Shown here: piece after piece, positions 5,158 through 49,526 of the stretch | How the letters are laid out: every line of letters begins with the position of its first letter | How positions within the stretch are numbered: the stretch's first letter is position 1 | Source: Pseudodesulfovibrio sediminis | GTDB lineage: Bacteria; Desulfobacterota; Desulfovibrionia; Desulfovibrionales; Desulfovibrionaceae | Assembly (NCBI RefSeq): GCF_020886695.1 | Contig: NZ_AP024485.1 | Location: 1-64,000, forward strand | DNA: 64,000 nt | Direction: 5' to 3' | Position numbers and translations under genes: made by a program | The notes under the pieces: model-generated | Databases searched by the model: none | Seen by the model: the letters and a program-made list of their open reading frames with translations, nothing else | Told to the model about the DNA's origin: nothing

Positions 5158-6360
5158 CTAGAGGGCGGCGCGCGTCTGTTCCCGTACTTCCCGGTCCAGC
5201 GCCAGCACGGCCTCAGGCGTGGATACGTCCACACTGGTATGTCGGTCAAGTCCGGCCTCAATCATGTCCGGGATATCCAGGAATCGAATGGTTTCATTGA
5301 GGAACGCGGCCACAGCGACTTCATTGATGGCATTGAGCACGATGGGATGGCTTGGTCCGGCAGCATAGGCTTCCTGAGCCAGACGAAGGCACGGGAAGGC
5401 CTGCAGGTCCGCTTCCTCAAAAGTCAGATTGCCCACCTGAGCGAGGTTGAGCTGCGGTACGTCTACCTGCACGCGATCAGGAAAGCACAGGCAGTGCGCG
5501 ATGGGCACCTGCATGTCGGGGTGGCCGAGATGGGCCAGTTGCGAACCGTCAACATACTCAACCAGCGAATGGATGATGGATTGGGGGTGGACCACCACGT
5601 CCACCTGCTCCGGCGGCAGTCCGTAGAGATGACAGGCCTCGATGAGTTCGAGGCCCTTGTTCATGAGCGTGGCGGAATCGATGGAAATTTTTGCGCCCAT
5701 ATCCCAGTTGGGGTGAGCCAGCGCCTGGTCGCGGGTGACGTTTGCGAGGAACCGTTTGTCCTTGCCTCTGAAAGGGCCGCCTGATGCTGTCAGGATGAGG
5801 CGTTTGAGGTCTTCGTCCTTGCCGTGTCCGGCAAGGCCCTGGAACAAAGCGTTGTGCTCGGAGTCCACCGGCAGGATGATCGCGCCTGAGGCGGAGCAGG
5901 CCTCCCGAATGATGTGGCCGCCCAGAACCAGCGATTCCTTGTTGGCCAGACCGATCATCTTGCCCGCTTTTGCGGCGGCCAGTGTGGGGCCGAATCCCGC
6001 TGCGCCGACAATGGAGGAGAGGACGCAATCCACTTCTGTCAGGGTTGCGAGTTCTTCATATCCTGCGGGGCCGATGAGAATTGTGGGTGAATAGCCTGTG
6101 GCGAGGTTGTCGACAAAAATCTGTCTGGTCTGTTCGTCAAGGACGCAGGCATGTGTCGGGCGAAACTCATTGCACAACTCGGCCAGTTTGGCGCCGTTGC
6201 GTCCTCCGGCCAGTGCCGTGACAATAAACAGGTCAGGGTGTTTTCGGATGACCTTGAGGGCGCTGTCACCGATGGACCCTGTGGCACCGAGGATGCTGAT
6301 GGAGCGCGGAAAGTCCGGTAGGTCGGAAGTTCCGGGCCAGGAAGAAATATATGTTTTCAC
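5158..6360 (-). CDS. dxr: 1-deoxy-D-xylulose 5-phosphate reductoisomerase
   Basis: Second enzyme of the MEP isoprenoid pathway. The NADPH-binding GATGSIGDS motif is close to the N terminus, the metal-binding region reads PVDSEHNALFQ, and the flexible loop TASGGPFRG is present. The reading frame stays open far upstream through cdsA, but the family N terminus fits the GTG at 6360, giving 400 residues. cdsA ends at 6381, 20 bases earlier. Together with uppS and cdsA it places precursor supply for undecaprenyl and phospholipid synthesis in one operon. Confidence 0.93.
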   Translation of the reverse strand: MKTYISSWPGTSDLPDFPRSISILGATGSIGDSALKVIRKHPDLFIVTALAGGRNGAKLAELCNEFRPTHACVLDEQTRQIFVDNLATGYSPTILIGPAGYEELATLTEVDCVLSSIVGAAGFGPTLAAAKAGKMIGLANKESLVLGGHIIREACSASGAIILPVDSEHNALFQGLAGHGKDEDLKRLILTASGGPFRGKDKRFLANVTRDQALAHPNWDMGAKISIDSATLMNKGLELIEACHLYGLPPEQVDVVVHPQSIIHSLVEYVDGSQLAHLGHPDMQVPIAHCLCFPDRVQVDVPQLNLAQVGNLTFEEADLQAFPCLRLAQEAYAAGPSHPIVLNAINEVAVAAFLNETIRFLDIPDMIEAGLDRHTSVDVSTPEAVLALDREVREQTRAAL

Positions 6361-6380
6361 AACGAGTGTCCGCCGACAGG

Positions 6381-7190
6381 CTATTTGAAGAACGGGTGGA
6401 ACAGAGAGATGATACCGAAGGTCGGGGCTGCCAGGAGCAGGCTGTCCACGCGATCGAGCAGGCCGCCATGGCCGGGCAGGATGACGCCGGAATCCTTGAT
6501 ATCCAGAGTGCGCTTCAGTGCGGATTCGAAGAAATCGCCGAATTGGGCGGCGATATTCAGGAGTGCGCCGAGCAGGAGCCACTTCCACCAGGCGACTTCG
6601 GCAAGACCAAAGGTCATGCCGTAGGCGGTAACGGCGCCCATGCACACAGTCAGGCCGCCGATGGAGCCGGCCCACGATTTCTTGGGGCTGACCCGGGGCC
6701 AGATCTTCTTTTTCCCCCAGAGCGAGCCGGAGTAGAAAGCCGCTGTGTCCGAGGCGGCAGCGGCCAATATGACCAGAATGATGCCCCACGGACTCATGGT
6801 AAGAAAAAAGTGAAAATTCAGCGGGATATAAATGAGGCCGGCCAGAAAGATCGCTGCGTGCCGGTAGGATGCGGTGACGTCCTTGTTGTATCTGACGAGA
6901 AAGACGAACCCTGCGGCCCAGAAAGCGATGAGCAGGACCACGGCGGGATATTGGACCTTCCCGGTGGTGAAGGCACCAAGCAGGAGGAAAGTGAAGGCCG
7001 CTCCCAGTGACTTGAAAGCCGTCATGGACTGCACCGGGCGGAACATGGAGTAGAATTCCCAGAGTGTCAGTACGGAGAAGAGGGAGAGAACCGTGAACAG
7101 AACCCATCCCTGGAAGAACAGGGCCAGGGCTGGCAGAATCGCCAGGCCTATACTCGTGGCGATTCTTTTTTTGTGTGGGGAAATATCCAT
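6381..7190 (-). CDS. cdsA: Phosphatidate cytidylyltransferase
   Basis: A polytopic membrane protein of 269 residues with several hydrophobic helices from residue 12 onward. The CdsA signature region appears as SDTAAFYSGSLWGKKK and the C-terminal part as DIKDSGVILPGHGGLLDRVDS. It makes CDP-diacylglycerol from phosphatidate and CTP. It lies between uppS and dxr on the same strand. The 115-base gap to uppS is larger than the other gaps in this run, but I see no terminator in it. Confidence 0.92.
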   Translation of the reverse strand: MDISPHKKRIATSIGLAILPALALFFQGWVLFTVLSLFSVLTLWEFYSMFRPVQSMTAFKSLGAAFTFLLLGAFTTGKVQYPAVVLLIAFWAAGFVFLVRYNKDVTASYRHAAIFLAGLIYIPLNFHFFLTMSPWGIILVILAAAASDTAAFYSGSLWGKKKIWPRVSPKKSWAGSIGGLTVCMGAVTAYGMTFGLAEVAWWKWLLLGALLNIAAQFGDFFESALKRTLDIKDSGVILPGHGGLLDRVDSLLLAAPTFGIISLFHPFFK

Positions 7191-13611: not shown

Positions 13612-15669
13612 ATGCCTGATCTGAAAACCCAAAGAACGTATGCACTCGTAGGCCACGGCGGTTCCGGTAAAACCACCGTTGCCGAGATGGTGCTTTTCAA
13701 CGCTGGAGTTGTAAACCGCCTCGGGAAGGTTGAAGACGGCAACACCGTCCTCGACTATGAGCCCGAGGAGATTAAGCGTCGCGGTTCCATTCAGCCCGGT
13801 TTTGCCAGCTACAAATGGAAAAAGAATGATCACTTCCTCATAGACACTCCCGGCGATTCCAATTTTGCTGGCGATCTCTCCTATAGCCTGACCGCTGCCG
13901 ATGGCGTTGTCATGGTTATTGATGCCGTGGACGGCGTGAAGCCGTTGACTCGCAAGATTTGGGCGCAGGTTCAGGGGTACGGATTGCCCGCCATGATAGT
14001 CATCAACAAGATGGACCGTGACAGGGCCGAATTCGATGTCGCATTCAATGGTATCAGTGATGCCTTGGGCGCACGTCCGGTATTGTTGTATTACCCCATC
14101 GGCTCCAAGGAAAATTTCAAGGGTGTTGTGGACATGATGTCCGGCAAAGCCCTGCTGTTCGGCGAAGACAACGCAGTGAGCGAAGGGGAGATCCCCGGAG
14201 AAATCGCTGATGAAGTCGAACTGCTGCGTGAAACCATGGTTGAAAATATCGCTGAATCCGATGAAGATCTCATGGAAAAATATTTTGAGGACGGCGAACT
14301 TTCCACTGAAGATATCACCAAAGGCCTTCAGGCCGGTGTCGCTGCCGGAGAGCTGGTTCCTGTGGTCGTCTCTTCTGCCCTGAATAACCAGGGTGGTCAG
14401 ATGATTCTTGATACTATTCAGAGTCTGTTGCCCAATCCTTTGGCACACACTCCGTGGGAAGGCGAGGACGGCGAACGCACCAGTTCTCCTGACGAGCCGC
14501 TGGCCTGCTTTGTCTTCAAGACACAGGCCGACCCCTTTGCCGGTCAGCTTACGGTTGTGCGGGTGCTTTCCGGTACGCTGAATCCGGACTCTCACCTGCT
14601 CAACGCCAACAACGGTGAAAAAGAGCGTGTGGGCCAGCTTCTGACAATGAACGGCAAGGATCAGGTTCAGGTCAAGAGCGGCATGGGCCCCGGTTCTATC
14701 GTGACTCTGGCCAAGCTCAAGAACACCGCCACTGGTGATACGCTGGTGGAGAAAGACGAGTTCAAGCTGATCAAGCCCGAATTGGCTCCGCAGTTGATCA
14801 CCTTTGCCCTGGCTCCGGCCGAAAAGGGGGAAGAGGACAAGGTTTATGCCGCCGTTGCCAAGCTGCTTGATGAAGACATCACGCTTACCCTGGCTCGTGA
14901 TGAAGAGTCCGGCGATATCCTGCTGTCCGGCATGGGACAGAATCATATTGAAATATCCGTAGAAAAGGCCAAGCGTCGCTACAAGACCCAGATCGTTCTC
15001 AAGACCCCCAAGGTTCCGTACCGTGAGACGTTCAAGACCGGCGCCAAGGAAGTGCAGGGTCGTCACAAGAAACAGTCCGGTGGTCGCGGTCAGTTCGGCG
15101 ATTGCTGGATCAATGTGAGCCCGAGGCCTTCCGGCGCAGGGTATGAATTCGAGGACAAGATTGTCGGTGGTTCCATCCCCCGTCAGTTCATCCCCGCAGT
15201 TGACAAAGGCGTTCAGGAAGTTGCTGCCCGTGGTGTGCTTGCTGGCTACCCGGTAATTGATTTCCAGGTCACACTGTATGACGGCAGCTATCACAACGTT
15301 GATTCCTCGGAAATGGCGTTCAAGGTCGCTGGCTCCCTGGCCCTCAAGAAAGCCTGTGAAAAGGCCAAGATGGCATTGCTTGAGCCTATCATGCTCGTCA
15401 CCGTGGCTGTTCCCGATTCCTTTATGGGCGATGTTATCGGCGACCTTTCTTCGCGTCGCGGCAAGGTGTTGGGGTCTGATTCCCAGGCTGGCCTGACCGA
15501 AGTCAAGGCGCATGTTCCCATGGCCGAGATGCTCAAGTACGCACCGGATCTGAACTCCATGACCGGCGGACAGGGAACGTTCTTCATGGAATTCGCTTCC
15601 TATGAGGAATGCCCGCCTCAGGAAACAGAGAAAGTCATCGCCGCCAACAAGAAGGTAGACGACGAATAG
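13612..15669 (+). CDS. fusA: Elongation factor G-like GTPase (EF-G paralogue)
   Basis: The 685-residue protein has the five-domain EF-G layout. G1 reads GHGGSGKTT, G3 DTPGDSNFAG, and G4 NKMD. The switch I segment is KRRGSIQPGFASY where canonical EF-G has ERGITI, marking the EF-G-like paralogue branch often annotated as elongation factor G-like. It is not next to rpsL-rpsG-tuf. It has its own promoter and terminator, so it is monocistronic. It could act in ribosome recycling with the Frr encoded nearby, as EF-G2 does in some bacteria, but that is inference. Confidence 0.85.
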   Translation: MPDLKTQRTYALVGHGGSGKTTVAEMVLFNAGVVNRLGKVEDGNTVLDYEPEEIKRRGSIQPGFASYKWKKNDHFLIDTPGDSNFAGDLSYSLTAADGVVMVIDAVDGVKPLTRKIWAQVQGYGLPAMIVINKMDRDRAEFDVAFNGISDALGARPVLLYYPIGSKENFKGVVDMMSGKALLFGEDNAVSEGEIPGEIADEVELLRETMVENIAESDEDLMEKYFEDGELSTEDITKGLQAGVAAGELVPVVVSSALNNQGGQMILDTIQSLLPNPLAHTPWEGEDGERTSSPDEPLACFVFKTQADPFAGQLTVVRVLSGTLNPDSHLLNANNGEKERVGQLLTMNGKDQVQVKSGMGPGSIVTLAKLKNTATGDTLVEKDEFKLIKPELAPQLITFALAPAEKGEEDKVYAAVAKLLDEDITLTLARDEESGDILLSGMGQNHIEISVEKAKRRYKTQIVLKTPKVPYRETFKTGAKEVQGRHKKQSGGRGQFGDCWINVSPRPSGAGYEFEDKIVGGSIPRQFIPAVDKGVQEVAARGVLAGYPVIDFQVTLYDGSYHNVDSSEMAFKVAGSLALKKACEKAKMALLEPIMLVTVAVPDSFMGDVIGDLSSRRGKVLGSDSQAGLTEVKAHVPMAEMLKYAPDLNSMTGGQGTFFMEFASYEECPPQETEKVIAANKKVDDE

Positions 15670-15691
15670 GCTTCATTTCTCGAAAACGATT

Positions 15692-15728
15692 AAGGGCGGC
15701 AGGTTTTCCTGTCGCCCTTTTTGTTTTC
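15692..15728 (+). terminator. Intrinsic terminator after the EF-G paralogue
   Basis: A 12-bp stem with one GU pair (15692-15703 with 15708-15719, loop TTTT) runs into a T-rich tract. Confidence 0.85.
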
Positions 15729-15787
15729 CTTGTTTCATCCCCTGTTTTGGTTTACTCAATTCTGAGCCTAAACAATAAGGAAAGCCG

Positions 15788-16510
15788 ATGTTTCGACGTA
15801 TATTTTTTGTCTTACTGCTCTGGATTGTGACCGTATACTACAGCTACAAAATGATGCAGGTCGATCAGGAGAACTCCACCCCGGAAGAGTTTGATAAATG
15901 GGGACTCAAATGGGGTGAGGCCGCTGTTAATCTGTCCGGTATGAAGATTGAGGCGGATATGGGGGATATTGATCCCAACGGACACTACGTGTTTATCTGC
16001 AACCACCAGTCCAATCTGGATATCCCGGTCCTGTTTGATAAACTCAAGGGGAATCGTATTCGTTTTGTGGCCAAAAAGAGCCTGTTCGATATTCCCATTT
16101 ATGGCAACGCCTTGCGGCATGCAGGACATATCTGCATTGATCGTGAAAACAGACGCTCCGCCATGAAGAGTCTGAATGAGGCCGTGGAAAAGGCCAAATC
16201 CGGTTTTTCGCCGGTCATCTTTCCTGAAGGGACGCGCAATCAGCATCTGGAAGAACTCATGGAGTTCAAAGTCGGCGGCATGATTATCGCGCTGAAGTCC
16301 GGGCTGCCCGTAGTTCCTATCGTCATGACCAATACCGGTCTTGTCATGGGCAAGGGACAATACATTGTCGATAACAAGCCCATTGTCCGGGTCAAGGTGC
16401 TGCCTGTCATTGATCCGTCCCAGTATACGCTCAAAGATCGTGAGAAGTTGAAAGACGATCTCTATGAGATGATGAACACTGCGTACAAAGAACTTTTGGC
16501 AGAAGGCTAG
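15788..16510 (+). CDS. plsC: 1-acyl-sn-glycerol-3-phosphate acyltransferase
   Basis: The acyltransferase box NHQSNLDIPVL (NHx4D type) is near residue 75 and the substrate motif FPEGTRN near 145. One hydrophobic helix at the N terminus anchors it to the inner membrane. It adds the second acyl chain to make phosphatidate, the substrate of CdsA encoded in this window. The RNase J gene begins two bases after its stop, so the two form an operon. Confidence 0.9.
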   Translation: MFRRIFFVLLLWIVTVYYSYKMMQVDQENSTPEEFDKWGLKWGEAAVNLSGMKIEADMGDIDPNGHYVFICNHQSNLDIPVLFDKLKGNRIRFVAKKSLFDIPIYGNALRHAGHICIDRENRRSAMKSLNEAVEKAKSGFSPVIFPEGTRNQHLEELMEFKVGGMIIALKSGLPVVPIVMTNTGLVMGKGQYIVDNKPIVRVKVLPVIDPSQYTLKDREKLKDDLYEMMNTAYKELLAEG

Positions 16511-37557: not shown

Positions 37558-38367
37558 ATGGATAGACAACCCATTGTAGCCGGTCGATTTTACGACGCAG
37601 ATCCAGACAAACTCAACGCCATGGTCGATGGCTATCTCGCCCTTGGCGGGGAACAATCGCAGGAGATAACGCTCCTCGCCATGGTGCCGCACGCAGGCTA
37701 TGTCTTTTCGGGAGCGGTCTGCGGCAAGACGTTTGGTATGGCCAATCTTGCCGATACTGTCGTACTTATCGGTCCCAATCATACCGGACGCGGCGAGCGG
37801 TTTTCGCTGTGGGAAGAGGGGCGCTGGCATATCCCCGGCGGATTTCTGCCCATAGATACGCAACTGGCAAAGCTCCTTTTGGAATCCGACCCCAATATCG
37901 TGGCCGATACGGCGGCGCATGTTGGCGAACATTCTCTTGAAGTCATTCTGCCGTTTTTGCGTCAACTGGCTCCGGCTTCCACCATTGTGCCTCTTTCCGT
38001 GTCCATGCCTTCATTACCTGTTCTCAAACAGGTTGGTCAGGCTCTCGGACAGACTCTCGCGTCATTGGATCGTCCGGTTTCATTGGTGATTAGTTCCGAC
38101 ATGAGTCACTATATCAGCCACGATGATGCCAAAAAGATGGATTCCCTGGCGTTGGACGCAGCGGTCAATCTTGACCCTGAGCGATTGTACAATACGGTTC
38201 GAGGGCACGATATTTCCATGTGCGGTGTGTTGCCCATGACTGTCGGGCTGTATGCGGCCCTGGAGATGGGAGCGGAAAAAGGTGAACTCGTGGCCTACGC
38301 CACATCTGGTGAAGTTTCCGGCGATTTTGATCAGGTGGTCGGGTATGCTGGCGTGCTGGTGAGTTGA
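37558..38367 (+). CDS. amrB: AmmeMemoRadiSam system protein B (Memo family)
   Basis: The 269-residue protein has the Memo-family pattern: PIVAGRFYDAD at the start, VPHAGYVFSG and IGPNHTGRG with putative metal-binding His, and HVGEHSLEVILPFL later. AmrB usually occurs with AmrA (AMMECR1) and a radical SAM AmrS. Neither partner is adjacent here. Its start follows the TPR gene by 23 bases with AGGGGGAGT, so it is probably cotranscribed. Confidence 0.88.
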   Translation: MDRQPIVAGRFYDADPDKLNAMVDGYLALGGEQSQEITLLAMVPHAGYVFSGAVCGKTFGMANLADTVVLIGPNHTGRGERFSLWEEGRWHIPGGFLPIDTQLAKLLLESDPNIVADTAAHVGEHSLEVILPFLRQLAPASTIVPLSVSMPSLPVLKQVGQALGQTLASLDRPVSLVISSDMSHYISHDDAKKMDSLALDAAVNLDPERLYNTVRGHDISMCGVLPMTVGLYAALEMGAEKGELVAYATSGEVSGDFDQVVGYAGVLVS

Positions 38368-38391: not shown

Positions 38392-38417
38392 TCACCCTGA
38401 TCAGGGTGATTTTTTTT
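38392..38417 (+). terminator. Intrinsic terminator after amrB
   Basis: A perfect palindrome (38392-38400 with 38401-38409) is followed by eight T. Confidence 0.85.
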
Positions 38418-38421
38418 GTCA

Positions 38422-38438
38422 TGCGACAGCCTGTCGCA
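38422..38438 (-). promoter_or_regulatory. SECIS-like hairpin after an in-frame UGA
   Basis: On the minus strand a 7-bp perfect stem (38438-38432 with 38428-38422) has the loop GGC. The loop begins 18 bases after the TGA at 38452-38450. Distance, stem length and a G at the first loop position fit general bacterial SECIS rules as I know them. It could otherwise be a plain hairpin near the gene end. Confidence 0.4.
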
Positions 38439-38440
38439 AA

Positions 38441-38652
38441 TCAGATTCCTCAACAGCCCCTCTTGAATCCGACGGTCGCCTTGCCGTTTTCTACAATGAC
38501 CGGGATTGTCTTTACCCCGTCAGAATGTTTCAGCATGGCATCCATGTTGGCTTGTGAAGCGAGTATATCCACAAAGACCGCTTCGGGGTGGGCTTCAAGA
38601 GCTCGTTTTGTGTGCGGGCAGGTCGGCTTCCATAAATGATCATCTCAGCCAT
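38441..38652 (-). pseudogene. Glutaredoxin-like UXX-stop (seleno)protein gene, frameshifted
   Basis: From the ATG at 38652 (GAGGAA ribosome-binding site) the frame reads MAEMIIYGS and then loses its sense. One base removed from a short C run at about 38625 would explain it: in the neighbouring frame the sequence continues PTCPHTKRALEAHPEAVF, then VDILASQANMDAMLKHSDGV, KTIPVIVENGKATVGFKRGC, then TGA (38452-38450). That is a glutaredoxin/thioredoxin-like small protein with a CPxT site and the TIPV cis-proline. After the TGA come two sense codons (Gly, Ile) and another TGA (38443-38441), matching U-x-x-stop selenoproteins, and a SECIS-like hairpin follows. Either a true pseudogene or a sequencing error within an intact gene. 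Confidence 0.65.
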
Positions 38653-38744
38653 GGTTATTTCCTCACTATAGGGAATACTACCAAGTGATCGTAGTGGCTG
38701 TCCATGCGTCAGAGCGTTCTCTTTATGGAGATGAAACAAAAGAA

Positions 38745-38780
38745 AACCGCCCGGTTCAGCTGATGCCGAACCGGGCGGTT
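38745..38780 (-). terminator. Intrinsic terminator of pnp
   Basis: A 13-bp perfect stem (38745-38757 with 38768-38780) is followed on the minus strand by a T-rich tract at 38744-38735. Confidence 0.85.
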
Positions 38781-38800: not shown

Positions 38801-41023
38801 CTAGCGGCGTCCGCGAGGACCACCACGGTTGTCACGACGTCCGCCACCACGGTTGTCGCGTCCTCCACTGCGGGGGGCAGGGCGCTTGAAGTCTTCCAGG
38901 TTTACTTCCTGTCCGGCTTCTTCCATCAGCCATGCCTTGCGGGACAGACGGATACGTCCGCCGGGTTCCAGGGAGATGCACTTGACCCAGACTTCCTGAC
39001 CGAGCTGGACCACGTCTTCGACACGTTCCACACGCTCGAAGTCGAGCTGGGAGATGTGCAGCATGCCTTCCATGCCAGGCAGGATTTCGACAAGTGCGCC
39101 GACTTCCAGAATCTTGCGAACAACGCCGAGGTAGTTCTTGCCGGGCTCGGCTTTCTGGTCGTAGTAGAGGACCATTTCCTTGGCCTTTTCCATGGATTCG
39201 AGGGTCGGAGCGAAGATGGAAATCTTGCCGGAATCCTCGATGTCGATGTTGGCTTCGGTTTCGGCTGTGATGGCCTTGATATTCTTGCCGCCGGGTCCGA
39301 TGACCGAGCGAATCTTTTCGGGATCGATATGAACGATATCCATCTGCGGAGCCAGCTTGGACAGTTCCGGGCGGGGAGCCGCGAGGACATCGTTCATGTG
39401 GCCGAGGATGTGCAGACGCGCTTCCTTGGCCTGGTGGAGAGCCTTTTTGAGGACTTCCTGGGGGATACCGGCGATCTTGATGTCCATTTGGATAGCGGTG
39501 ATGCCGTCCTTGGTACCGGCGACCTTGAAGTCCATATCGCCCAGAGCGTCTTCGTCACCGAGGATGTCGGTGAGTACGAAGAACTGATCGTCTTCCTTGC
39601 ACAAGCCCATGGCGATACCGGCGACCGGCTCGGAAATGGGAACACCTGCGTCCATCAGGGACAGGGTGGCGCCGCAGACGGATGCCATGGAAGAGGAGCC
39701 GTTGGACTCCATGATCTCGGAGACAACGCGGATGGTGAACGGGAAGTCATCCTGGTTCGGCAGAACCGGGGTGAGAGCGCGTTCAGCCAGTGCGCCATGG
39801 CCGACTTCGCGGCGGGAGGTACCACGCAGCATACGGGCTTCACCGACGCAGTACGGCGGGAAGTTGTAATGCAGCATGAAACGCTTTGTAGCGTCGCCGA
39901 GCAGGGAGTCGTAACGCTGTTCGTCACGGGTGGAACCCAGCGTGGCGACAGCCAGGGCAGAGGTCTCGCCGCGGCGGAAGAGGACGGAGCCGTGTGTCTG
40001 AGCCAGCAGGCCAGTCTCGATGGACAGCGGACGAACGGTGGTGGTGTCACGACCGTCGATGCGCAGACCTTCGTTCACGATGCGCTCACGAACGAGCTTT
40101 TTGGTGATGTCGCCAACGATATTGCCGACAGCCTTGAGCTTTGCCTCGTCCTCGGGGAACTTTTCGGCAACAGCGGCTTTGGCTTTTTCCTTGGCAGCAT
40201 CCTTGGCAGCGTAGCGGACCAGCTTCTCAGGGGTGATAACGGCAGCCTTGATATCTTCGGTGATGAAGTCGCCGAGGAAGGCAACGAGTTCTTCGTCCTT
40301 CTCGGGAGCTTCAACTTCCAGTTTGGCAACGCCGACCTTTTCGCGGAGTTCGTCCTGCAGATCGAACAGCGGTGCGACCTGCTCATGGCCCCAGGCCAGT
40401 GCGTCAGCAACCAGATCTTCTGAGACGAAGTCGCCGCCGCCTTCAACCATAACCATGGCTTCGCGGGTTGCTGCGAAAACGAGGTTCAGGGAAGACTCTT
40501 CTTCCATGCCCTTGTAGGTCGGGTACAGAACGAATTCGTTGTTCACGTAACCGACGCGAGCACCCACGATGGGGCCGAGGAACGGCATCTTGGAGATGTG
40601 GCAGGCAGCGGATGCGCCGGTCAGTGCCAGAACGTCCGGGTTGACGTGTTTGTCAGCGGACAGGACCGTGGCAATGATCTGTACTTCGTCGGCAAAGCCG
40701 TCGGCGAACAGGGGGCGGATGGGGCGGTCGATGAGACGGGAGATCAGAGTCTCGCGCTCGGACGGGCGGCCTTCACGACGGAAGTAGTTGCCCGGTACGC
40801 GACCGGCTGCATAGGCCATTTCCTGGTAGTTGCAGGTCAGCGGGAAGAAGCCGCGGTCAATGGCCAGGGGCTGGGTCACGGCTGTGACCAGAACAGTGGT
40901 GTTGCCGGACGAAATGGTAACCGCGCCAGAGGCCTGGCGGGCGTATTTGCCGGTTTCGATGGTGATGTCGATGCCGCCGACCGTAGCGGACAGGCTTGTG
41001 GCATCAAAAGGAATCATCGTCAT
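38801..41023 (-). CDS. pnp: Polynucleotide phosphorylase
   Basis: The 740-residue protein has two RNase PH cores (first with FFPLTCNYQE and GRVPGNYFRREGRP; second with GRDTTTVRPLSIETGLL and SNGSSSMASVCG), a KH domain (KIRSVIGPGGKNIKAI), and an S1 domain. It ends in an Arg/Gly-rich tail (RDNRGGGRRDNRGG). It degrades RNA 3' to 5' using phosphate. It follows rpsO, and the 232-base spacer between them is strongly folded, which suggests leader-based autoregulation as in E. coli. Confidence 0.96.
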   Translation of the reverse strand: MTMIPFDATSLSATVGGIDITIETGKYARQASGAVTISSGNTTVLVTAVTQPLAIDRGFFPLTCNYQEMAYAAGRVPGNYFRREGRPSERETLISRLIDRPIRPLFADGFADEVQIIATVLSADKHVNPDVLALTGASAACHISKMPFLGPIVGARVGYVNNEFVLYPTYKGMEEESSLNLVFAATREAMVMVEGGGDFVSEDLVADALAWGHEQVAPLFDLQDELREKVGVAKLEVEAPEKDEELVAFLGDFITEDIKAAVITPEKLVRYAAKDAAKEKAKAAVAEKFPEDEAKLKAVGNIVGDITKKLVRERIVNEGLRIDGRDTTTVRPLSIETGLLAQTHGSVLFRRGETSALAVATLGSTRDEQRYDSLLGDATKRFMLHYNFPPYCVGEARMLRGTSRREVGHGALAERALTPVLPNQDDFPFTIRVVSEIMESNGSSSMASVCGATLSLMDAGVPISEPVAGIAMGLCKEDDQFFVLTDILGDEDALGDMDFKVAGTKDGITAIQMDIKIAGIPQEVLKKALHQAKEARLHILGHMNDVLAAPRPELSKLAPQMDIVHIDPEKIRSVIGPGGKNIKAITAETEANIDIEDSGKISIFAPTLESMEKAKEMVLYYDQKAEPGKNYLGVVRKILEVGALVEILPGMEGMLHISQLDFERVERVEDVVQLGQEVWVKCISLEPGGRIRLSRKAWLMEEAGQEVNLEDFKRPAPRSGGRDNRGGGRRDNRGGPRGRR

Positions 41024-41588: not shown

Positions 41589-42530
41589 TCAGTCCTGATT
41601 CCAGAGACCGCGAAGGATAGCCCATTTAGGCGTTCCATTCTGGAGTTTCGCTTCCACCAGAGCCAGAGGGGTGCCTTCGGGATCAAGCAGCATGGCCTGA
41701 TCGCCGAGTTCGCCCGCCAAAAGCTCGCCAGGTTGGTCGACAACCGGTAGCCAGGCCCCGTTTTTCACGAGTCCTGACAGCGGTTCGGTCAACGTGAACC
41801 TGGGCCAGTGGGGCAGGGTATCCGCTAGTGGGATGACCCTTTCCGGAAATGATTCCGGATTCTCCAGAACGTCCATGAGGTCAAGAGCCTGATCAAGCCC
41901 GAAAGGCTCGCTCGACTCCCGGACCAGGCTGGTCAGCGTCGCGCCGCACCCTATTCGTGTCCCCAAGCTGTGGACCAGGGAACGTATATAGGTACCGGCG
42001 GAGCAACTGACCCTGAATGCCGCTTCCGGCATTTGCACGTCCAGCACTTCCACATGAGAAATAACAATGGGCTTTATTTTGACCGGAGTTTCCTTGCCCT
42101 CGCGGGCCAGGGCGTACAACGGCTTACCCTCGTGTTTGGCAGCGGAATAGGCAGGAACTTCCTGCTCTGTCAACTCTTTCCAATATAAAATTGCACGTTT
42201 GACATCTTCCGCAGAGGCCGAAACATCACTTTCTTTAACAACTTCTCCTTGAATATCAAGGGTATCTGTTGTGATTCCAAGGCGAAATGTGCCTCGGTAG
42301 GTTTTGGTCCCGCCGGAGAGATACGGAGCCAGTTTGGTCCCGTGTCCGAGCAGGACAAGAAGCACGCCTTCGGCCATGGGATCAAGAGTTCCTCCGTGGC
42401 CGATCTTGAACTGTTTGAGTTGATGCTTGATGTCGTTGAGACAGGCTGCTGAGGTGGGGCCGGAAGGCTTGTTGAGTATAAGTAATCCGTCTCGTTGTTC
42501 CGGGCTTCTTTTCTTTTTTCTACGTCCCAT
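41589..42530 (-). CDS. truB: tRNA pseudouridine(55) synthase
   Basis: The catalytic motif GHGGTLDPMAEGVL carries the active-site Asp; further TruB regions YRGTFRLG and GTYIRSLVHSLG are present; 313 residues. The basic start MGRRKKKRSPEQRDG precedes the LLILNKPSGPTS core. Its ATG shares a base with the nrnA stop (TGATG). Confidence 0.95.
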   Translation of the reverse strand: MGRRKKKRSPEQRDGLLILNKPSGPTSAACLNDIKHQLKQFKIGHGGTLDPMAEGVLLVLLGHGTKLAPYLSGGTKTYRGTFRLGITTDTLDIQGEVVKESDVSASAEDVKRAILYWKELTEQEVPAYSAAKHEGKPLYALAREGKETPVKIKPIVISHVEVLDVQMPEAAFRVSCSAGTYIRSLVHSLGTRIGCGATLTSLVRESSEPFGLDQALDLMDVLENPESFPERVIPLADTLPHWPRFTLTEPLSGLVKNGAWLPVVDQPGELLAGELGDQAMLLDPEGTPLALVEAKLQNGTPKWAILRGLWNQD

Positions 42531-47399: not shown

Positions 47400-48782
47400 C
47401 TATTTCGACTCCTCGCCATCGGCGGGAGTGTCGGATTCTTCAGTCTCTTCTTCGACAGTTTCTGCTGTTTCTTCAACAACTTCATCTGCAGTTTCGGTTT
47501 CATCAACAGGGGCTTCCTGCGGCTCTTCACTGTCGTCCTTGTCGGCCTCAAAGAGGTCGGGGGCGAGCATGTTGATAGCCACACGGATATCACCGACTTT
47601 ACTCTCGGTCATGTCCTTGATGGAGAGCAGTTCTTCATCAGAAGCCTGGATGATGGAATCAATGGATTCGTATCCGGCAGCAAAGAAATTCTCCATGGAG
47701 ATCTCGGCCACAGCCGCAACCTGATCCATGCCTTTGCGCTCTGCGTTGAGTTCTCCGTAACGAGAGTTGGTGAAGATGTCTATCTTCCAGCCAAGAAGTT
47801 TGGCAGCCAGTTTGACGTTCTGGCCCTTGCGGCCAATGGCCAGACTGAGCTGATCGTCGGGGCAAACCACTTCCAAAGTCTCCTCTTCCTCGTCCACGGT
47901 AATGCGTGAGATGAGTGCGGGGGAGAGGGCGTGCTGCGCGTACATGGCGATGTCCGGGGACCAGACAACGATGTCGATACGTTCGCCCTTGAGTTCCTGC
48001 ACAACGTTTTGAATACGAGAGCCGCGGATACCGACACAGGCGCCCACGGGATCGACGTCGCGTTCGCGGGACATGACAGCCACTTTGGCACGCAGACCGG
48101 GATCGCGGGATACGCCCATGATCTTGACGGTGCCGTCTGCCACCTCGGGAACCTCGCGCTTGAACAGTTCGATCATGTAGTCCGGGTGGGACCTGGACAC
48201 GACGACCTGCGGGCCACGGGATTCTTTCAATACATCTATGATATAGGCCTGGACGCGATCACCACGCTTGTAGCGTTCTCTGGGAATCTGTTCGTCCTTG
48301 GGCAGCAGGGCTTCCGTGCGGCCGAGGTTGATGATCCAACCGGTCCGGTCGCGACGCTGAATGATGCCGCTGGCGATTTCGGACACGCGGTCCTTGTATT
48401 CTTCGTAAATGATTTCCTGCTCGGCATCGCGCATGCGCTGGATGATGACCTGCTTGGCGCTCTGCGCTGCAATACGTCCCAGGTCCTCCACCTTGAGCGG
48501 GAAGCCCATCTCGTCATCCAACTGGGCGTTGGGGTCATGAGCGGTTGCCGCTTCCAGGGAAATTTCACTGATAGGGTCATGGACATCTTCGACGACGATC
48601 TTGAATTCGAATACTTCGATTTCGCCGAGTTCCTCGTTGAAGGACACTTCGATATCCATGGTCTCGCCATATTTGCGAGCTACGGCAGATCGTACTGCTT
48701 CTTCAAGGGTATCAATGAGCAGGTCACGGTCAATGCCCCTGTCTTTGCTTATCTGGTCGATTGCTTTTTTCAGCTCCGACAT
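47400..48782 (-). CDS. nusA: Transcription termination/antitermination factor NusA
   Basis: The 460-residue protein has the NusA N-terminal domain (MSELKKAIDQISKDRGIDRD), an S1 domain, two KH domains (GSRIQNVVQELKGERID and AIGRKGQNVKLAAKL), and an acidic C-terminal tail from about residue 415. The ATG at 48782 is preferred to an upstream in-frame start because the family begins there. It modulates pausing and antitermination and heads the infB cluster after rimP. Confidence 0.95.
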   Translation of the reverse strand: MSELKKAIDQISKDRGIDRDLLIDTLEEAVRSAVARKYGETMDIEVSFNEELGEIEVFEFKIVVEDVHDPISEISLEAATAHDPNAQLDDEMGFPLKVEDLGRIAAQSAKQVIIQRMRDAEQEIIYEEYKDRVSEIASGIIQRRDRTGWIINLGRTEALLPKDEQIPRERYKRGDRVQAYIIDVLKESRGPQVVVSRSHPDYMIELFKREVPEVADGTVKIMGVSRDPGLRAKVAVMSRERDVDPVGACVGIRGSRIQNVVQELKGERIDIVVWSPDIAMYAQHALSPALISRITVDEEEETLEVVCPDDQLSLAIGRKGQNVKLAAKLLGWKIDIFTNSRYGELNAERKGMDQVAAVAEISMENFFAAGYESIDSIIQASDEELLSIKDMTESKVGDIRVAINMLAPDLFEADKDDSEEPQEAPVDETETADEVVEETAETVEEETEESDTPADGEESK

Positions 48783-48842
48783 GATCAAACCTCCGCTTGT
48801 GCCCGGATCTCTGTATGGTCCGGGCAAGTAGTGATCTTCAAA

Positions 48843-49301
48843 CTAAAATTCGTGGATCAACCGGGCTTTCTTGATGGAAAGCCAGTCGATATCCATTGTT
48901 TCTTCATCAACGGTCATGGTGATGGTGTCGCCTTTCACTGCGACCAGTTCACCTTTGAGCTTGCGACGGTCAGCCACGGGGTCGACCAAAGTCACCTTGA
49001 TTGTCCGACCGATGTAACCGACCATTTGCTCAGGTGTGAAAAATCGTCTTTCAAGACCGGGGGAGGAGACCTCCAGCGTGAATGCCCCGGGAATGACGTC
49101 TTCCACTTCAAGCATCAGCCCGACCTGACGACTGACATGCGCGCACTGGTCAATGTGCACACCGTCTTCACCGTCGATATATATGCGAACAACGCGCTTT
49201 TTGCCGGACGGCGGGGAACTCAATCCCCAAAAGATAAGACCGAGATTTTCAATCTCGGGCCGGATTATATCCGTCAGCATTTCTTCGAAAGTCTGGCGCA
49301 T
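48843..49301 (-). CDS. rimP: Ribosome maturation factor RimP
   Basis: The 152-residue protein shows RIYIDGEDGVHIDQCAHVSR and TLEVSSPGLERRFFTPEQ, both RimP signatures. It assists 30S assembly and is first in rimP-nusA-ylxR-infB. A terminator for the upstream tRNA gene (49336-49362) separates it from tRNA-Gly. Confidence 0.95.
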   Translation of the reverse strand: MRQTFEEMLTDIIRPEIENLGLIFWGLSSPPSGKKRVVRIYIDGEDGVHIDQCAHVSRQVGLMLEVEDVIPGAFTLEVSSPGLERRFFTPEQMVGYIGRTIKVTLVDPVADRRKLKGELVAVKGDTITMTVDEETMDIDWLSIKKARLIHEF

Positions 49302-49335
49302 TTATTCTCCTGCCCCCGTGGGGAGCGATTTGCCA

Positions 49336-49362
49336 ATAAAAAAGGTGAGCCCGAGCTCACCT
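49336..49362 (-). terminator. Intrinsic terminator of tRNA-Gly
   Basis: An 8-bp perfect stem (49362-49355 with 49350-49343, loop of four) runs into TTTTTTATT on the minus strand. Confidence 0.85.
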
Positions 49363-49408
49363 ACGCGAACCCCGCAAAGCCTAAACGGTCAAGCCTTGCG
49401 AAAGGCAT

Positions 49409-49484
49409 TGGAGCGGGTGACGGGGGTCGAACCCGCTACTTTCAGCTTGGGAAGCTGACACTCTACCAATTGAGTTACACCCGC
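49409..49484 (-). tRNA. tRNA-Gly, anticodon CCC
   Basis: On the minus strand the acceptor stem GCGGGTG pairs with CACCCGC. The D arm is ACTC-AATTGGTA-GAGT and the anticodon loop TTCCCAA lies in the stem TCAGC/GCTGA. The T arm is GCGGG-TTCGACC-CCCGT, the discriminator is T, and CCA is encoded. The loop places CCC at 34-36, so it reads GGG glycine codons. No other tRNA is next to it. Confidence 0.93.
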
Positions 49485-49497
49485 TTGGAAACGAGCC

Positions 49498-49526
49498 TAT
49501 TTATACATATATGAATCCGATGTCAA
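49498..49526 (-). promoter_or_regulatory. Promoter of tRNA-Gly
   Basis: On the minus strand TTGACA (49526-49521), 17 bases, then TAAATA (49503-49498); the tRNA begins 14 bases further on. A perfect -35 and good -10 fit a strong stable-RNA promoter. Confidence 0.7.

Follow-up and report, generated by a model that had tools for sequence, protein, structure and literature searches.

A glutaredoxin-like UXX-star selenoprotein gene, one base short as assembled, in Pseudodesulfovibrio sediminis

The locus and its two reading frames

The window analysed here is the first 64,000 nucleotides of contig NZ_AP024485.1 of Pseudodesulfovibrio sediminis. At positions 38652..38441 its minus strand carries a single gene (212 nt including the stop) that is split over two reading frames, A and B. 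Upstream lies pnp, encoding polyribonucleotide nucleotidyltransferase (38801..41023, minus strand; TIGR03591, 964.6 bits), which served as the synteny anchor, and the convergent neighbor on the other side is an AmmeMemoRadiSam system protein B gene (37558..38367, plus strand; TIGR04336, 287.4 bits). A terminator-like hairpin stands between pnp and the gene (38745..38780, minus strand) and another lies 3' of the gene (38392..38409, minus strand). A weak promoter-like pair of hexamers (38675..38704, minus strand) agrees with the consensus at 9 of 12 positions, and a GAGGAAA at 38658..38664 on the minus strand resembles a ribosome-binding site. An Rfam scan returned no match above the gathering score.

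Frame A (38530..38652, minus strand) runs for 40 codons from an ATG at 38652-38650 to a TGA at 38532-38530; its first residues, MAEMIIYG, are the only part that fits the family described below, and the whole of frame A matched no NCBIfam model at E <= 1. The body of frame B (38453..38629, minus strand) extends from a Lys codon at 38629-38627 to the Cys that precedes its first TGA. It reads KPTCPHTKRALEAHPEAVFVDILASQANMDAMLKHSDGVKTIPVIVENGKATVGFKRGC, then TGA, GGA, ATC and TGA, beginning with Lys-Pro-Thr-Cys-Pro-His-Thr and ending with Gly-Cys-TGA-GGA-ATC-TGA. The glutaredoxin-like C/U-x-x-T site is present as CPHT at 38620-38609. The first TGA (38450..38452, minus strand) is the putative selenocysteine (Sec) codon, and Gly-Ile-TGA (38441..38449, minus strand) supplies two further residues and the true stop at 38443-38441.

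The frames meet at 38627..38631 on the minus strand, as placed by the genus consensus IYGK-x-T-CPHT. Because the Gly codon of frame A (38631-38629) and the Lys codon of frame B (38629-38627) have base 38629 in common, the gene lacks a single base at 38631-38627. An earlier note on this sequence had proposed that one C was missing near 38625 from a gene of 67 codons. A base is indeed missing, but it belongs to the junction at 38631-38627 and the alignment of relatives does not indicate a C there; the length has to be revised as well, since the intact family has 70 residues (8 + 3 + 56 + 3), which is the length of the NF041114 model.

No continuous reading frame joins A to B, and the family gene is therefore broken as assembled. 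An internal start in frame B was considered and rejected: no ATG, GTG or TTG was found upstream of CPHT in that frame, so internal initiation offers no bypass. To judge from the sequence, the gene as assembled makes no family protein, as frame A stops without encoding the active site, and frame B, which encodes it, has no start codon ahead of it.

Membership in a catalogued selenoprotein family

On its own, the 57-residue frame B piece hits the NCBIfam model NF041114 (UXX-star selenoprotein family 1) with an E value of 2.5e-19 over 38626-38456, and NF041212 with 1.5e-9 over 38629-38453. NF041114 is the best of the ten families listed for this piece. Its 69.3 bits fall just below the cut-off of 72, with the N-terminus and the tail outside the matched piece; the model gives 86.7 bits to L008 and 96 bits to L028, both intact relatives. 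Given the E value, the synteny with pnp and the family spacing of 56 codons from CPHT to TGA, frame B is not a chance match. The joining of the two minus-strand frames into one glutaredoxin-like gene with CPHT and TIPV, as first proposed in the earlier note, is thus borne out, and the Cys-TGA-Gly-Ile-TGA end that it described is present in the sequence.

The gene is a member of UXX-star family 1, a kind already catalogued, two-Sec forms included. It shares with that family a glutaredoxin-like character, a length of about 70 residues when intact, the C/UPHT site and a Sec that is followed by two residues and the stop; it differs in its one-base frame break. At the catalytic site it has Cys rather than Sec, and its tail would read Cys-Sec-Gly-Ile. 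Table 1 of a 2026 review lists a ‘Distant Grx-like protein 1 (UXX-star selenoprotein family 1)’ under NF041114, with the motif UxxT and two Sec (PMC13188914), and a passage of a 2022 review likewise gives Distant Grx-like protein 1 with UxxT (PMC9312934). UXX-star families 2 and 3 and the HUGP/GUXX-star fusion (NF041211, NF047338 and NF045501) share the type of tail, going by the names of the models, and frame B reaches only 24.3, 19.5 and 12.9 bits against them. When solved structures were searched with a profile of 12 UXX-star relatives, nothing but glutaredoxins matched: nine distinct PDB sequences (2klx, 7c12, 3grx and others), all named glutaredoxin and all weak matches (E 4e-6 to 9e-3). 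A C-terminal Sec tail is not known from ordinary glutaredoxins. The end of the window gene, Gly-Cys-Sec-Gly-Ile, is reminiscent of the C-terminal Gly-Cys-Sec-Gly of thioredoxin reductase, a different protein.

Distribution and conservation within the genus

Thirty-six genomes of the genus, two of them (G023 and G029) only 82% complete, were searched with NF041212. Some match was obtained in all 36 genomes when ordinary glutaredoxins are counted, and a UXX-star copy was found in 30; the six without one are G001, G002, G012, G023, G026 and G029, and the best match in G029 is, from its translation, another glutaredoxin. The copy of G008 was taken from the pnp locus, and the short match in G024 was read by eye as a whole copy. 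Of the 30 copies, that of the window alone is frameshifted; the other 29 have an intact frame.

As in most genomes of the genus, the window gene lies downstream of pnp. The Pro codon of C/UPHT is found 140 to 459 nt beyond the pnp stop in 23 genomes; by coordinates, the copies of G007 and G011 are less than 200 nt from the pnp match, those of G004, G010, G027 and G028 are 1.0 to 3.1 kb away, and in G003 the UXX-star copy and pnp are on separate contigs. Read by eye, the pnp terminator of G001 and G002 leads directly into the AmmeMemoRadiSam B gene. These two genomes form one clade with G012 and G029 on a pnp codon tree of 30 genomes, and the absence of the gene from all four may reflect one loss. 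With six of 36 genomes lacking a copy, the gene is dispensable.

On the same tree the closest genome to that of the window is G031, 0.178 substitutions per site away, and the C-terminal part of pnp is up to 94% identical to that of G008 and G009. Frame B shares most residues with the copies of G022 and G030 (42 of 56 in each case); its identity is 33 of 56 to the copy of G031 and 35 of 56 to those of G008 and G009. This mismatch between the nearest relatives of frame B and of pnp may be noise, given the 56 residues compared, or gene exchange.

Counted from the first codon of C/UPHT, a TGA comes 56 codons later in all 30 copies, that of the window included, and a stop follows exactly three codons further on in each (TGA in 16, TAG in eight, TAA in six). 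A scan of the contigs by pattern, which required CPHT and was hence blind to UPHT copies, gave 44 matches, among them 12 confirmed relatives, and all 12 end in TGA-x-x-stop; four of these loci (L053, L054, L055 and L058) come from genomes already in the genus set. The residue before Sec is Ser in 25 of the 30 genus copies, Cys in three (the window, G016 and G027) and Ala in two, and Gly after Sec occurs in the window copy alone. At the catalytic site, Cys is encoded in 23 copies and TGA stands in seven, while the C-terminal Sec codon is TGA throughout. The constancy of the C-terminal Sec where the catalytic residue swaps between Cys and Sec suggests that the tail is under tighter constraint than the catalytic site.

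A SECIS-type hairpin beyond the stop codon

A SECIS-type hairpin of seven pairs (38422..38438, minus strand), with a GGC loop that starts 18 nt after the TGA and an energy of -9.0 kcal/mol, follows the gene; it lies past the stop codon since Sec is two codons from the end. The bacterial SECIS model (PMC13188914) calls for a loop of 3-9 nt with G in the first two places, a stem of 4-16 bp, a distance of 16-37 nt after UGA and a minimum free energy of at most -7.5 kcal/mol, and the hairpin of the window agrees with it in loop, stem, distance and energy. A wider stretch of the window folds only modestly better than its shuffles (z -1.99, with 10 of the 200 doing equally well).

All 30 genus copies have, downstream of the TGA, a G-led loop that begins at a distance of 17 to 24 nt from it and is GG-led in 26, with the register found by script in 25 copies and by eye in five (G011, G013, G014, G025 and G032). 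Folded from two bases past the TGA, 27 of the 30 reach -7.5 kcal/mol; those that fall short are G024 (-7.4), G033 (-5.5) and G032 (-2.6). Covariation was assessed in 28 copies, 26 of them distinct, with G003 and G013 omitted for their 4-nt loops. In this set 88.5% of cells are paired and seven of the eight pairs show changes on both sides, a result equaled by one of 500 shuffles. The covariation score is 0.449, compared with 0.209 in shuffles (none of 500 as high) and no more than 0.230 when the alignment is slid, figures that are biased in favor of covariation as the register was picked for pairing. The count of further pair types gives a weaker signal (13 of 500).

Selenocysteine machinery and the identity of the first TGA

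The genome has the full set of selA, selB, selC and selD. Profile searches found selA at 606.4 bits, selB at 390.3 bits and selD at 333.2 bits, and a tRNA-Sec (selC) with anticodon TCA scored 78.7 bits. The genome's own SelD (L050; G000:C1:2591527-2592456) contains one in-frame TGA, in the context KAAG-U-AAK and with a foldable stretch downstream, at what looks like the usual Sec position of SelD. The genome therefore appears to depend on UGA decoding to make its own SelD.

The earlier note had likened this end to the U-x-x-stop glutaredoxin-like selenoprotein type of Desulfo-type bacteria, and had named, among the findings that would speak against its reading, homologues that stop at the first TGA and a genome devoid of Sec machinery. 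The opposite was found in each case, and the family model and the covarying hairpin agree with the assignment. The first TGA is almost surely the selenocysteine codon of a known family. That it is an ordinary stop, with the U-x-x pattern a product of chance, is hardly credible: TGA is normally a stop and Sec is here deduced from sequence, but every one of the 30 genus copies has a TGA at this codon and a stop precisely three codons later, and this, the covarying hairpin and the Sec machinery all stand against it.

Age and origin of the frame break

Frame B shows no sign of decay in its conserved columns or in pN/pS. At columns conserved in at least 90% of copies it has no departures, a property shared by 21 of the other 29 copies, and four of its residues are unique among the genus copies. 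Its mean pN/pS is 0.34, the seventh lowest of 30, in what is a weak test, with pS at 0.60 to 0.99 and a time since the lesion that may be short. No second lesion was found in the window gene. An old pseudogene was rejected on these grounds, conserved columns being kept and pN/pS ordinary. The lack of decay therefore indicates that the lesion is either a recent mutation or a sequence error, the same pair of options that had been posed at the outset.

Of these two, we consider a real and recent loss the better explanation, with a probability of about 0.58; this figure and the ranking of the other readings are a matter of judgement rather than computation. According to this explanation, a UXX-star family 1 gene was broken by the loss of one base and is now a very young pseudogene. 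In intact relatives the product would be a glutaredoxin-like protein of 70 residues that has Cys or Sec at the CPHT site and ends two residues after a Sec, the UGA being read by SelB and Sec-tRNA by way of the hairpin just beyond the stop codon. The protein presumably has a glutaredoxin fold in which the Sec tail acts with the CPHT site, most likely as a thiol/selenol redox pair or a metal-binding pair; the 2026 review suggests that metal, or substrates as yet unknown, may be bound by the Sec of UXX-star proteins (PMC13188914). On the branch leading to P. sediminis a single base would have dropped out where the Gly codon meets the Lys codon, and translation would halt after 40 codons without the active site, in a genus that has one gene-less clade. 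The nearest relative compared, G031, is at 0.178, too far away to date the lesion.

What tells against a real loss is that a single sequence error would leave exactly such an otherwise intact gene. An error in sequencing or assembly that dropped one base, leaving the organism with a working UXX-star selenoprotein that the record hides, is accordingly a serious possibility, although we give it the lesser credence. The start, the ribosome-binding-site-like element, the spacing, the conserved columns, the hairpin and pN/pS are all in order, and the lesion is single. The junction, however, holds only two-base runs. Sixty of 69 non-overlapping ORFs of G009 have a counterpart in the window with at least 50% identity, and none of the 60 (54.6 kb) is split; for G031, 55 of 76 ORFs have such a counterpart, with one split candidate that is partly antisense to gcvH. 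Indel errors would thus seem to be uncommon in the window, which mildly favors a real mutation, the comparison speaking against a poor assembly but having no power over one base. An error-ridden assembly was rejected on the same count.

The comparison of frames ran in four directions, for which the candidates numbered 6, 2, 11 and 2 before filtering and 1, 0, 3 and 4 after it; some of these were inspected. The three and four filtered rows belong to the reverse direction; two ORFs involved are out-of-frame or antisense shadows, and the rows against G009 include window ORFs 48536-49511 and 15608-15827. Split candidates at 15.8-18.2 kb and 28.6-29.8 kb were discarded, the opposite strand being filled by intact genes, and so was ORF 5158-7107, which consists of dxr and an out-of-frame upstream extension across a cdsA-like gene of the same strand. 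In truB (window 41591-42530), a frame change near the 3' end seems to have occurred in G031 and not in the window.

Much less probable than either mutation or error is a translational -1 shift that restores the frame, which would make this a 70-codon gene whose expression involves recoding twice, once by frameshifting and once by reading UGA as Sec. A -1 shift at the junction would yield the family length and frame B is undecayed, but the latter is equally expected under a recent lesion. The X-XXY-YYZ heptamer, the sole frameshift signal searched for, is absent from 38652-38600, and all 29 remaining genus copies can be read without any shift. A programmed frameshift was rejected for want of both the heptamer and a relative that requires it.

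The gene is one that ordinary gene calling would miss twice, through its in-frame TGA and through its frame break. If the lesion is real, the locus captures the loss of a selenoprotein from a genome whose Sec machinery remains complete.

Copies with a second in-frame TGA

Seven of the 30 genus copies (L027, L028, L029, L030, L031, L032 and that of G008, L070) have a second in-frame TGA at the position of the catalytic Cys, giving UPHT. In six of the seven, the best hairpin after this TGA has the loop UGGAU/C, 19 nt on. Copies with Cys at the catalytic codon fold equally well after it (means of -8.5 against -8.3 kcal/mol), so this hairpin is no proof of a second SECIS element. On the pnp tree the UPHT copies fall into two groups, with weak support.
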